64,000 nucleotides of DNA from Ruminococcus sp. (GTDB taxonomy: Bacteria > Bacillota > Clostridia > Oscillospirales > Ruminococcaceae), in assembly GCA_017558505.1 (NCBI GenBank), contig JAFYUM010000013.1, positions 1-64,000 of the forward strand, given 5' to 3'. Shown here one piece after another: positions 3,795 through 8,902 of this stretch (within the stretch, counting starts at the first letter, position 1; each line of letters starts with the position of its first letter). The position numbers and the translations under genes are program-made. The notes under the pieces are model-generated. The model was not told the DNA's origin. It did no database searches and worked only from the letters and a program-made list of their open reading frames with translations.

Positions 3795-3807
3795 GTTCCC
3801 TATACAA

Positions 3808-3862
3808 AATGCAGCAAACACACTAACGGAATTTCCTGTAAAGTGGTTTGCTGCATTTTTTT
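3808..3862 (+). terminator. Terminator after GH44
   Basis: A 12-bp stem (AATGCAGCAAAC paired with GTTTGCTGCATT) with a long loop is followed by seven T. The following stretch to 4118 is AT-rich and I see no convincing gene in it. Confidence 0.85.
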
Positions 3863-4118
3863 AACATACAAGCATCAAAACATATCCAAACCAATCAGGT
3901 CCTTCCACCTTTGAAAAGTCAGATCTATCATGATTAGTCATAGATAAGCCTATTCCGGTATAATCCTAAAATAGCAGAAAAGAAAACTCCACAATATAGT
4001 ATTGTTTTCAAAGTTATAACTGAATTATTGCTTATAATCATATTTTGCGATAAAACCTTCGCGATTCTTATTTGTTGCTGTTTTGTATAAGATTTGTATT
4101 TTTTTGTTGAAAGATTTA

Positions 4119-4147
4119 TTGACATCTTCATATTGAGATGATATAAT
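4119..4147 (+). promoter_or_regulatory. Consensus promoter of the GH11-like pseudogene
   Basis: TTGACA at 4119-4124 and TATAAT at 4142-4147 with exactly 17 bp between them: a perfect sigma-A consensus. The gene it drives is broken, so the promoter outlives an intact reading frame. Confidence 0.85.
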
Positions 4148-4204
4148 AAAAATATATAAAAATATAAACCTCTTACAAATCAATAATATAAAGGAGTGTT
4201 GGGT

Positions 4205-5664
4205 ATGAAAAAAGGGATATTGAAAAAACTGTTTGCTTGTATGTTATCTGCTACGGTTGCTACAGTTTCATTTCCTGCAGAAACCGGATTTGAAACAAAA
4301 GCTGCTGAATTCAGTGAACAGGGCTATCAGGATGGTCTTGACTGGGAATTATGGTATAGTTACGACGGTCAGGGAACAGGCGAAATGGAACTGACGGGAA
4401 ATGGCGGATTTATTGCTGAATGGAACGATGTTCAGGAATATATGGCAAGAACAGGCATAAAATGGGATCTTAAAGCTGATACTCCAAGTTATGCTAATAA
4501 ATATTATGAATGGGAAGAAAATGGTAATATTATAGTCAATTATGACGTGGATTATCGGCCTGAGGGCTGTTCAACCCTTTGTGCTTTCGGCTATGGTGGT
4601 TACCAAGTTGATTTTCAGTTTTATATTGTGGAAAATTACAGTGACTGGGATCCTGCTGAAACAATTGAATATGTTGACGACATTGAAGTTGACGGAATTA
4701 CATATGACGTTTATAAAAGCGGATTTCACGATATAAGCGGTATAACCTACAAAACCTACTACAGCGTACGCCGTGATGATGATAAAAGTTCAAGTGGAGC
4801 TATTAATGTAACAGGTCATTTTGATGAATGGAAAAAGCTTGAACTAACTGTACCTGATTCAATTCAAGAGGTATCTTTACTTGTATATGGATTTGATTCT
4901 ACAGGCTATGCAGAGGTAAAGAAGAACTATATTACAATTGACGGCAAACCTGTTAATAAAAATCGGAAGAATCTGACGAACCAGAAATAATAAGCGGTGA
5001 ATGTGGCGAAAATGCAAGCTTCACATTAGACGAAAAAGGCACGTTAACCGTCAGCGGCACAGGCGATATTTCCTTTGGTTGTGGTACAGGAGAATCTATC
5101 CGATGGGATGGATACATTGATAGCATAAAAAAAGTAATTATTCAGGACGGTATAACGTCCGTCGGTGATAATGCTTTTTCGGAATCCACTTCTTTGTATA
5201 GTGTCACAATTCCGAAAAGCGTTCTGGAAATATGAGAATTTGCTTTTAACAGTTGTACAATGTTGAATTCAGTAATTATTGAAAATCCCGATTGTATAAT
5301 TCCTATGTCTGATGATACCATAAATAACGGTATAGAATCAGATTCATCTGGAAGCAAACAATATGACTTAACAATATATGGTTATGCTGGCTCAACAGCT
5401 GAAAAATATGCATTAGAAAATGATATACCGTTTAAAGCGTTGGACGAAACTTCCGCAGCAAGAAATATAAAAGGCGACGCTAACTGTGACGGAACATTGT
5501 CAATAGCAGACGTAGCTTCAATTTATCAGGCGTTGGGAAATTCAGACAAGTATTCATTATCAGAACAGGGTTTGGTTAATGCGGATATAGCTGATAATGG
5601 CAACGGTATCACCGTCAATGATGCTATTATGATACAAAGACTTATCACAGATGAGGCTCTATAA
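4205..5664 (+). pseudogene. Broken secreted GH11-like / BspA leucine-rich / dockerin protein
   Basis: ATG at 4205 is preceded by AAGGAG at 4191-4196. The first frame (261 codons to 4990) has a signal peptide and a full GH11 beta-jelly-roll pattern: GTGEMEL and RTGIKW blocks, VNYDVDYRPEG, FYIVENY and YYSVRR. Both catalytic glutamates are replaced: Gln138 stands at the nucleophile and Tyr228 at the acid/base position. Near 4962-4972 the frame must shift by one base to continue into a BspA-type region (CGENASFTLDEKGTLTVSGTG, then IPKSVLEI). A TGA at 5233-5235 (probably from GGA) then interrupts a leucine-rich repeat. The frame resumes to a dockerin (GDANCDGTLSIADV and NADIADNGNGITVNDA) ending at 5664. 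With two lesions it is most likely a pseudogene; the first ORF could still make a secreted GH11-fold domain. Sequencing error remains possible. Confidence 0.85.
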
Positions 5665-5713
5665 ATCATTTTATATCTGATGAATTTCCAAAGATTTAAA
5701 TCAAATTTCAAAA

Positions 5714-5746
5714 AAACACGAAACTTTACTGTTTCGTGTTTTTTTT
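5714..5746 (+). terminator. Terminator after the GH11-like pseudogene
   Basis: AACACGAAAC pairs with GTTTCGTGTT across a 6-nt loop and is followed by a T tract. Confidence 0.88.
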
Positions 5747-5819
5747 GAAATCAGAATATTATATCCAAAAACATTTGAAAAATATATTCATTTTATCCAC
5801 CAAATATTCATATTCTCCA

Positions 5820-5848
5820 TTGACATAAATAATGTTATTTGATAAAAT
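5820..5848 (+). promoter_or_regulatory. Promoter of the GH43-CE1 gene
   Basis: TTGACA at 5820-5825, a 17-bp spacer and TAAAAT at 5843-5848. The transcript would begin near 5855 and have a leader of about 70 nt. Confidence 0.8.
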
Positions 5849-5864
5849 ATAAATATAAAGTCAC

Positions 5865-5897
5865 GGCAACACTGTACAACCTCTGTGCAGTATTGCC
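5865..5897 (+). promoter_or_regulatory. Leader hairpin upstream of GH43-CE1
   Basis: GGCAACACTG pairs with CAGTATTGCC with one mismatch and a 13-nt loop, ending 12 bases before the Shine-Dalgarno AGGGGG at 5910-5915. No T tract follows, so it is not a terminator. It may be a 5' stabilising or regulatory hairpin. Confidence 0.45.
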
Positions 5898-5923
5898 ATA
5901 ATTAATTCAAGGGGGAATTTTAA

Positions 5924-8902
5924 ATGAAGAAATTACTCAAATCCACTGTAGCAGTTGCTTCGGCTTTATCAATGTTATGTGGCGCAATGCCGATTGTAAC
6001 AAGCGCAGAAAATCCACTTGCACAGAGTCTTTACACTGCTGATCCTGCACCTATGGTACATGACGGTGTTCTCTATTTATACACAAGTCATGATAGAGAT
6101 AATTCCGACTATTTCTATATGCCCGACTGGCAGTGCTATTCCACAACAGATATGAAAAACTGGACTCATCACGGTACAGTTTTATCTGATACGGATTTTT
6201 CCTACGCTGAAAAAGATACTGCATGGGCTGCACAGTGTATTGAAAGGAACGGAAAATTCTATATGTACTGTCCTCTCAATAATGCGGCAGGTGGCGGTCG
6301 TGTAATTAGCGTTGCCGTTTCGGACAGCCCTACCGGACCTTTTAAAGACGCTCTGGGCAAGCCTCTTGTAGGTCCTAACTGGGATTTCATCGATCCGACA
6401 GTTTATATCGACGATGACGGACAGGCTTATCTCTACTGGGGCAATCCACAGCTTTATTATGTAAAGCTTAACGAAGATATGATTTCATATTCCGGAGATG
6501 TTCAGAAGGTTGATATGAGTTCTGGTTTTGGCAAAAGCAACGATCCCGAGAGCCGCACAGGTGCTCTTTATACAGAAGGGCCATGGTTCTATAAAAGAGA
6601 CGATTTGTACTATATGCTCTACGCCGCAAATGGTATTCCCGAAAATGTAAGCTACTCAACAAGCACATCTCCCACAGGTCCCTGGACATATCGTGGTGTT
6701 ATTATGCCCAACGGCGAGGATGGTGCAGCTTTCACAAATCACCCCGGTGTAGTTGATTACAAAGGTCACTCATACTTCTTCTATCACAATCAACGTCTGC
6801 CCGGCGGTGGTGGATTTAACCGTTCTGTTGCCGTGGAGGAATTTACCTACAACAGCGACGGCACCTTCCCCACAATTCATATGAGCGAGGACGGTCCTAC
6901 ACAGCTTGAATCCGTAAACCCATACGAAAAAAATGAGGCTGAAAAAATGAGTTACGGCTCAGGAATTGAAACAGAAGTCTGTGGTGACGGCGGTATGGAT
7001 GTTGCAAATATTGAAAGCGGCGACTATGTAAAGATCAGCGGCGTTGACTTTGGTGAAGGTGCAGCTTCCTTTACAGCAAGCGTTGCTTCTGCTACAGATG
7101 GCGGAACAATCGAAATCCACCTTGATAGCGCAACAGGTCCCATTATCGGAACAGTTGACGTTACCTCAACAGGCGGCTGGCAGGATTATACAAGGGTAAC
7201 AACAAACATAATGGGAGCAAAGGGCGAACACGACCTGTTCCTGAGATTTTCGGGCGGTGAGGGTTATCTCTTTAATGTTGACTGGTGGCAGTTTACAAAG
7301 TCAGGTACATCAGCAGAGCAGACTACAACAAAACCGACCGGAAATACAGATGATACCAATACAAGCACAAGCGGAAAGGAATATTTCCGTGATACTTTTG
7401 AAAGCGGCGAGGGCGACTGGACAGGGCGTGGTTCTGCTACAGTTTCAGCAAGCGGAGATGCAAAATATCAGGGAAGCAAAGCACTCTTTGTAGATGACCG
7501 TGAAGCTTCATGGAACGGTGCAACAAAAGCATTGAGCACTGATACTTTCATTCCCGGACAGGAATTTTCTTTCAGCGTCAATGTAATGTGCCCCACAGAG
7601 AACAAAAGAAGCTTATTCTATCTCACACTCCAGTATACAGGTGCTGACGATGAGACATATTATGACAAGATTGCAAGAGGCGTTGCAATGAATGGCAACT
7701 GGATTCAGCTTTCAAATCCAAATTATAAAATTCCCGAAGGTGCAGCTGATTTACAGCTTTATGTAGAAACAAGTACAGGTCAGAATGATTTCTACATTGA
7801 TGATGTAGTTGCTGCTTCAAAGGGCACAAAAATTTCAGGTGCAGGTCTTAAAAACGCTATTATAAGAGGAGATATCAACTGCGACGGCAAAGTTGATGTA
7901 TATGACGTAATTGAAGCAAGAATCAGCTATATAAACGGATTTAAAAATGAGCAGGTTGCTAAAAATGCTGATGCCGACAACAGCGGTGAAGCAGCAATCA
8001 ATGACCTTGTTCTTATTCATCAGTTTGTAATGGGCGAAATTGATGACTTCCCGCAGGGTGAGCTCGTAGTTCCGGATGAACCTGTAAAAGAGCCTTTTGA
8101 ATACAACGCTAATCTCCAGTACCATGCCGCTCCCGACAAATATGTCAATGAGCCCGCAAGCCAACAGGGTAAAGTAATCAACGAAACATATACAGGTATT
8201 CACGGACAGAAGAAGCTCAATGTATACCTGCCTTATGGATATGATGAAAACAAGAAGTACAATATTTTCTACCTCATGCACGGCGGCGGAGAAAATGAAA
8301 ATACAATATTCAGCGACGATGTAAAATTCAACAATATGCTTGACCATATGATTCAGAATGGCGAAATAGAGCCTATGATTGTTGTAACGCCCACATTCAA
8401 CAACGGTGGATGTTCAGCTGAAACAGTATACAAAGAAATGAAAGAAAGCATCGTTCCATTTGTCGAAGGAAAATATTCAACATATGCTGAGTCAACTTCG
8501 CCTGCTGACCTTGAAGCTTCAAGAATGCACAGAGCATACGGTGGTTTCTCCATGGGCGGCGGCTCTACATGGAATGTACTCATAAACGATATCGACTACT
8601 TTGCATATGTAATGCCTCTCAGCGGTCATTGCTGGGGTGGAGCAGATGCCGTAGGTCAGGCTGTTGCAAATTCCAAGTATAAGGATTCAACATATATTCT
8701 TGCAGCTACAGGTACAGAAGATATTGCATACGGCAATATGGTTCCACAGATTAACGCCATGAAGAATATGTCTGTATTTACATATACATCAGATTTCTCA
8801 AAGGGTAATTTCTACTTCCTTGAAGCTCCCGGTCTTACACACTGGTGGGGTTTTGTAAGACACTATGTATACGATGCACTCCCCTATTTCTTCCATGAAT
8901 AA
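5924..8902 (+). CDS. Secreted multienzyme GH43-CBM6-CBM22-dockerin-CE1
   Basis: 992 aa with a signal peptide (1-28). Residues 30-330 are a five-blade GH43 module with Asp40 (base), Asp157 (FIDPT) and Glu218 (TEGPW, acid), expected to act as arabinofuranosidase or xylosidase. Residues 334-458 match CBM6 (ending DWWQF) and 487-632 resemble CBM22/CBM4_9. A dockerin at 645-710 (GDINCDGKVDVYD, NADADNSGEAAINDL) sits internally. Residues 725-992 are a CE1 esterase with the nucleophile Ser876 (GFSMGG), probably Asp933 and His973 (LTHWW), of the kind that removes ferulate or acetate from xylan. The enzyme would therefore debranch arabinoxylan sugars and esters from one cellulosomal subunit. It has its own promoter and terminator. 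The dockerin differs in type from those of GH44 and GH9 in this window. Confidence 0.93.
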   Translation: MKKLLKSTVAVASALSMLCGAMPIVTSAENPLAQSLYTADPAPMVHDGVLYLYTSHDRDNSDYFYMPDWQCYSTTDMKNWTHHGTVLSDTDFSYAEKDTAWAAQCIERNGKFYMYCPLNNAAGGGRVISVAVSDSPTGPFKDALGKPLVGPNWDFIDPTVYIDDDGQAYLYWGNPQLYYVKLNEDMISYSGDVQKVDMSSGFGKSNDPESRTGALYTEGPWFYKRDDLYYMLYAANGIPENVSYSTSTSPTGPWTYRGVIMPNGEDGAAFTNHPGVVDYKGHSYFFYHNQRLPGGGGFNRSVAVEEFTYNSDGTFPTIHMSEDGPTQLESVNPYEKNEAEKMSYGSGIETEVCGDGGMDVANIESGDYVKISGVDFGEGAASFTASVASATDGGTIEIHLDSATGPIIGTVDVTSTGGWQDYTRVTTNIMGAKGEHDLFLRFSGGEGYLFNVDWWQFTKSGTSAEQTTTKPTGNTDDTNTSTSGKEYFRDTFESGEGDWTGRGSATVSASGDAKYQGSKALFVDDREASWNGATKALSTDTFIPGQEFSFSVNVMCPTENKRSLFYLTLQYTGADDETYYDKIARGVAMNGNWIQLSNPNYKIPEGAADLQLYVETSTGQNDFYIDDVVAASKGTKISGAGLKNAIIRGDINCDGKVDVYDVIEARISYINGFKNEQVAKNADADNSGEAAINDLVLIHQFVMGEIDDFPQGELVVPDEPVKEPFEYNANLQYHAAPDKYVNEPASQQGKVINETYTGIHGQKKLNVYLPYGYDENKKYNIFYLMHGGGENENTIFSDDVKFNNMLDHMIQNGEIEPMIVVTPTFNNGGCSAETVYKEMKESIVPFVEGKYSTYAESTSPADLEASRMHRAYGGFSMGGGSTWNVLINDIDYFAYVMPLSGHCWGGADAVGQAVANSKYKDSTYILAATGTEDIAYGNMVPQINAMKNMSVFTYTSDFSKGNFYFLEAPGLTHWWGFVRHYVYDALPYFFHE

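Follow-up and report, generated by a model that had tools for sequence, protein, structure and literature searches.

A gene in the 64-kb Ruminococcus sp. window analysed here (the whole stretch of 64,000 nucleotides) carries what is probably a GH11-derived pseudoenzyme, most likely a non-catalytic cellulosomal module before the gene was broken. According to this explanation, an ancestral copy of a cellulosomal xylanase would have been stripped of its nucleophile and acid/base, along with the greater part of the substrate cleft. Selection would have retained its jelly-roll fold and secretion signal and, up to a recent time, also a leucine-rich (LRR) part and a dockerin.

All elements of the gene lie on the forward strand. 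A consensus scan identified a sigma-70-type promoter (TTGACA-17-TATAAT, positions 4119-4147) that matches at 12/12 positions and presents a TG before the -10 element, and an AGGAG ribosome-binding site is seen in the sequence just upstream of the present open reading frame (4205-4990, stop TAA 4988-4990). This frame comprises the signal peptide and the GH11-like domain, encoded together by 4205-4957, and a 10-codon out-of-frame tail. Its termination at 4990 results from a 1-nt shift in an A5 run (4958-4962), detected by three-frame translation, that displaces it relative to the BspA-type LRR part (4966-5469). The latter scores 26.5 bits (E 6.5e-6) against the LRR_5 model, just below the cut-off of 27.7, and has LRR-dockerin relatives within the genus that are about 35-51% identical; translation and comparison with these relatives revealed an in-frame TGA stop at 5233-5235. 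A type I dockerin of the divergent Ruminococcus type follows (5470-5640), in a frame that is open to the TAA at 5662-5664. Its Dockerin_1 Pfam score of 10.8 bits falls below the cut-off, but the segment aligns clearly with the dockerins of LRR-dockerin proteins and of the neighboring GH44 protein. The 3' side of the gene is marked by a terminator-like hairpin (5705-5752; fold -21.7 kcal/mol, z -6.3) presenting a stem with an A/T tract. The ancestral protein is hence of the signal-GH11like-LRR-dockerin type, and its gene is now broken twice, with both lesions located 3' of the GH11 domain and cutting the gene after it. The attached LRR and dockerin parts described in the first-pass annotation are indeed recognizable downstream, but not in the same frame. 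Programmed frameshifting or readthrough was ruled out, given the shortness of the A5 run and the second, independent TGA downstream. Signal peptide and dockerin, which mark a cellulosomal protein when they share one open frame, no longer do so, and attachment to the scaffoldin would now be lost. Its promoter suggests that transcription of the broken gene may continue; if expressed, the gene would yield a soluble secreted GH11-like protein of 261 aa, devoid of LRR or dockerin.

The GH11 fold proposed for the 4205-4990 frame was borne out by database searches. Residues 45-238 of the frame score 82.6 bits against PF00457, for which the cut-off is 27, placing the domain within the GH11 family, and a phmmer search against the PDB retrieved the GH11 structure 1h4g (E=1.6e-28). 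An AlphaFold model built from two sequences reached a pLDDT of 48 and is too poor for active-site geometry; Foldseek searches with this low-confidence model returned eight matches below E=0.001, all of them GH11. The Pfam, PDB and Foldseek matches support a GH11 (PF00457) domain, presumably non-catalytic, at 4337-4918.

In the alignment with 1h4g, which is ungapped around both catalytic motifs, Gln138 (codon 4616-4618) occupies the nucleophile position (FQFYIVEN versus VEYYIVDS in the family) and Tyr228 (codon 4886-4888) the acid/base position (VYGFDSTG versus VEGYQSSG); the family alignment places both codons identically. The two glutamates that define an active GH11 enzyme are thus replaced, as had been proposed from the sequence, but the loss extends beyond the catalytic pair to other cleft residues and to the thumb, which is shortened and has lost its PSI motif. 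Using Bacillus circulans xylanase numbering, 12 cleft positions were scored (W9, N35, V37, Y69, W71, Y80, P116, F125, Q127, Y166 and both Glu), following a list that was checked against PMC5569632 and to which the acid/base was added. Ten of these 12 positions are changed in the window domain, with N35->E, V37eq->M, Y69->F, W71->Y, P116->S, F125->Y, Q127->T and Y166->Q accompanying the two catalytic replacements, and only Trp9eq and Tyr80eq are kept. In a sample of 189 distinct aligned GH11 domains from the genus and family, Glu is present at the covered catalytic positions in 186. The three exceptions (given as nucleophile/acid-base) are the window domain (Q/Y), locus L037 of species G062 (E/Q) and locus L011 of species G009 (Q/E), in which only 3/58 conserved columns are changed; a further search of the lowest-scoring matches added one K/E and one E/D case. 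Among 186 scored domains, 182 present zero or one cleft change, two present three or four, and the window domain and L037 present ten each. The window domain would therefore be expected to lack hydrolytic activity.

These changes could have arisen through ordinary pseudogene decay, with an active xylanase gene being broken and its catalytic residues then drifting with everything else. The gene is truly broken by two lesions, its nearest homologs are E/E and sister species lack it at this site, all of which favor such decay, but the distribution of changes makes it improbable. Among alignment columns with at least 90% conservation, the window domain is changed in 9/11 cleft columns versus 10/47 others (p=3.2e-4); among columns with 98% conservation, in 8/10 versus 1/25 (p=1.6e-5), leaving intact 24/25 near-invariant columns outside the cleft, whereas drift should affect cleft and fold to the same degree. 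Much the same contrast between cleft and core is seen in L037. The phylogenetic tree places the window gene at the tip of a long branch within the G062/G042 clade. Of a divergence of 50%, about two thirds fall on this branch, from which about 80 amino-acid changes were estimated and used as input for a neutral simulation. Under this simulation about 5 stops are expected and the probability of observing none is about 0.005; no stop is present in the 251 codons counted, and the domain contains no frameshift, every indel that distinguishes it from its relatives preserving the frame. The LRR and dockerin parts carry, besides the shift, one stop only, whereas a truly decayed GH11 gene of the same class (G875:C2) presents several stops within the match. 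The dN/dS of the window gene versus the G062 copies is saturated, and the claim of selection on the window branch therefore rests on the cleft/core contrast and the stop counts. Neutral decay is contradicted by these data, since the cleft changed far more than the fold, the domain lacks stops and its indels are in frame. Catalytic residues are lost and the fold appears to be under selection, the latter being a statistical result from one sequence, and we conclude that the domain is likely to be a GH11 pseudoenzyme in which selection kept the fold while the site was dismantled, rather than a product of simple decay, and that the frameshift and the TGA arose after active-site loss.

Homologs carrying both glutamates had been put forward as a sign of decay. 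The nearest homologs (G062, about 50% identical) do mostly carry both, yet they are the wrong test, since the distribution of changes inside the domain itself contradicts neutral decay. A search for intact homologs with the same Gln/Tyr changes, in a comparison set of one genome per species, found none that carries the pair, and the exact Q/Y form has been seen in a single genome. A scan of genome contigs gave a single match, at 31%, and no relatives were found among viral contigs. GH11 is otherwise widespread, being present in 98/125 genomes of the genus, some of which harbor over 20 copies. The genus is taken to be Ruminococcus from a relative found in a Ruminococcus sp. MAG and from the architectures of the dockerin and GH11 proteins.

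What the search for intact relatives did recover are other dismantled GH11 sites in dockerin-bearing proteins of related species. L037 (G062:C40) encodes a complete 432-aa signal-GH11like-linker-dockerin protein, 42% identical to the window domain, with 10/12 cleft positions lost and changes that include an acid/base Gln, Y69->T, W71->F, P116->I and Q127->R. On the question of one loss shared by L037 and the window gene, the full tree gave values of 80/44 and the tree without the cleft columns 64/26, and alternatives were not rejected (AU p 0.55 and 0.33). Three tandem GH11 genes are found in G041:C13, from a close sister species with 100% identical HisF. One of them (L252:1297-2853) encodes an intact, secreted 519-aa GH11like-CBM4_9-dockerin protein with Lys at the nucleophile position (K/E) and 6/12 cleft positions lost; it otherwise aligns clearly with 2c1f (E=3.7e-91). 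The GH11-like domain of this protein shows a dN/dS of 0.22-0.25 at a dS of about 1 versus the active tandem neighbors, a value that is supportive rather than proof because part of the path belongs to the active copies. A second (L257:1249-2886) is a 546-aa GH11-CBM4_9-dockerin copy that retains both Glu in a cleft eroded at 6/12 positions, and their tandem neighbor is an active-looking 814-aa GH11 gene. Likewise, the second tandem GH11-CBM4_9-dockerin copy in G062:C35 (L034:5354-6913, reverse strand) has both Glu and a cleft eroded at 4/12 positions (W9->L, N35->Y, V37eq->H, Y80->F); it is missing the esterase present in the adjacent gene and, from its sequence, looks like a pseudoenzyme in the making. 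In G026:C252, a 1062-aa open frame (L260:118-3300, reverse strand) joins four tandem, highly divergent GH11-like units to CBM4_9 and a dockerin, with mixed catalytic pairs: E/D, a lost nucleophile with E, and an acid/base His. A GH11-GH10-dockerin-GH10 gene of G009 (L040:3510-6854, reverse strand) was also observed, in which the nucleophile alone is Gln and the remaining GH11 cleft is intact. On the basis of the window gene, G062 C40, G041 C13 and the tandem units of G026 C252, cellulosome-forming Ruminococcus species may repeatedly have converted duplicate copies of GH11 xylanases to dockerin-borne pseudoenzymes with a dismantled cleft and a conserved non-catalytic job in fiber degradation, a generalization that we advance tentatively and put at slightly less than an even chance.

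The window gene is flanked by a GH44-dockerin gene and a GH43-CBM6-CBM4_9-dockerin-esterase gene. Its GC content is not unusual for the window and gives no sign of a recent horizontal origin. In six sister species (G045, G046, G061, G056, G050 and G057), drawn from those with HisF 99-100% identical to that of the window species, the XRE-GH44 pair is kept and the gene beside it is absent, which would fit a gain as well as a loss; among the matches listed for the window domain, those from these six species all fall well short of the G062 copies. The gene is hence patchy. Across 3795-8902, only the window species, among those examined, has the GH11-like and GH43 genes at this site, and the sister species carry other genes downstream of XRE-GH44. 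Two further GH11 genes, L001 and L003, were observed in the same genome (C32 and C45). The C32 copy has both catalytic Glu and the C45 copy, cut by the contig end, has the acid/base Glu; the species should therefore keep GH11 xylanase activity.

As regards its function, the simplest reading is a cellulosomal non-catalytic role, because dockerin and signal peptide were part of the protein. The dockerin would have placed the protein on the scaffoldin, with the GH11 shape and the LRR serving in binding or positioning rather than hydrolysis; candidate partners are polymers of the plant cell wall, or else further proteins of the cellulosome or the cell surface. The earlier suggestion of a former secreted, dockerin-bearing protein with an already non-catalytic GH11 domain is upheld by the cleft-specific loss, the kept fold and the intact relatives. 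Its extension to xylan binding is doubtful if the old cleft is meant, since most sugar contacts and the PSI thumb motif are gone and the two residues kept out of 12 make that cleft a poor candidate binding site. The domain may have had a binding role, but binding via another surface, or via the LRR, would be as likely.

Other explanations bear on the lesions or on the remodeled cleft. The gene could be intact in nature, with one or both lesions being assembly errors or a recent strain-specific mutation and the full pseudoenzyme working in the cellulosome. Just two point lesions in about 1460 bp, the unremarkable GC content and the well-kept promoter, signal peptide, dockerin and terminator-like hairpin agree with this proposal, which is compatible with the preferred explanation as regards the domain; two errors in one gene would nonetheless be odd given how tightly long open frames fill the rest of the 64 kb, and we deem this proposal unlikely. 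A decoy for plant xylanase inhibitors of the XIP/TAXI types, coming from the diet and shielding active paralogs, is very unlikely. This is an idea only, suggested by the kept general fold, the many active GH11 paralogs in the genus and an inactive GH12 paralog of Phytophthora that reportedly binds a plant inhibitor, but XIP/TAXI-type inhibitors contact the GH11 cleft and thumb, precisely the parts that are remodeled in the window domain. Least probable of all, and hardly to be expected, is an enzyme with a changed mechanism, in which Glu78 (equivalent to N35) and Asp136 (located two residues ahead of the old nucleophile) would form a new acid pair acting on another substrate. Residue 35, in contact with the acid/base in GH11, is Glu in the window domain and Asp in L037, whose acid/base is Gln, but Asp is also found there in ordinary acidophilic GH11, the other inactive copies do not share a conserved new carboxylate pair with the window domain, and the thumb has gone together with most contacts of the -1 subsite.

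To our knowledge, GH11 is usually treated as purely catalytic, and genome surveys count every PF00457 match as a xylanase. Gut bacteria of the Ruminococcus group seem to retain inactive forms of the xylanase fold among the components of their fiber-degrading machinery. If so, counts based on PF00457 overestimate xylanase capacity, and a class of directly testable non-catalytic GH11-fold parts exists in the cellulosome. On its own the broken window gene is of modest value; its value lies in the intact GH11-fold pseudoenzymes of cellulosomal ruminococci to which it leads. The open-access literature searched, a scope that does not cover subscription papers, yielded no description of GH11 pseudoenzymes.

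Compared with known systems, the window gene shares with active GH11 endo-1,4-beta-xylanases (1h4g; Ruminococcus GH11-CBM22-dockerin proteins) the sequence of the whole fold, a signal peptide and a former dockerin, and differs from them in the Gln/Tyr catalytic pair, the extensively changed cleft and the shortened thumb. Its partner is an LRR, in contrast to the CBM22, GH10 or esterase partners of cellulosomal Ruminococcus GH11, and no GH11 domain was found beside LRR-dockerin parts in the relatives examined. The signal-LRR-dockerin layout is common to the LRR-dockerin proteins of R. flavefaciens FD-1, non-catalytic cellulosomal parts (PMC2930009) to which the window gene adds GH11. Chi-lectins, GH18-derived lectins without chitinase activity and with demonstrated binding (PMC3662789), likewise keep a glycosidase fold with possible binding, but they belong to GH18, and the cleft of the window domain is mostly gone. 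A parallel in mode of action would be offered by leaf-beetle GH28 pseudoenzymes, which have lost activity, belong to a plant-cell-wall-degrading family that has expanded, and are kept in the same digestive pathway (PMC6549527); they have another fold and come from another kingdom, and their function was revealed by gene silencing, whereas that of the window domain is inferred.
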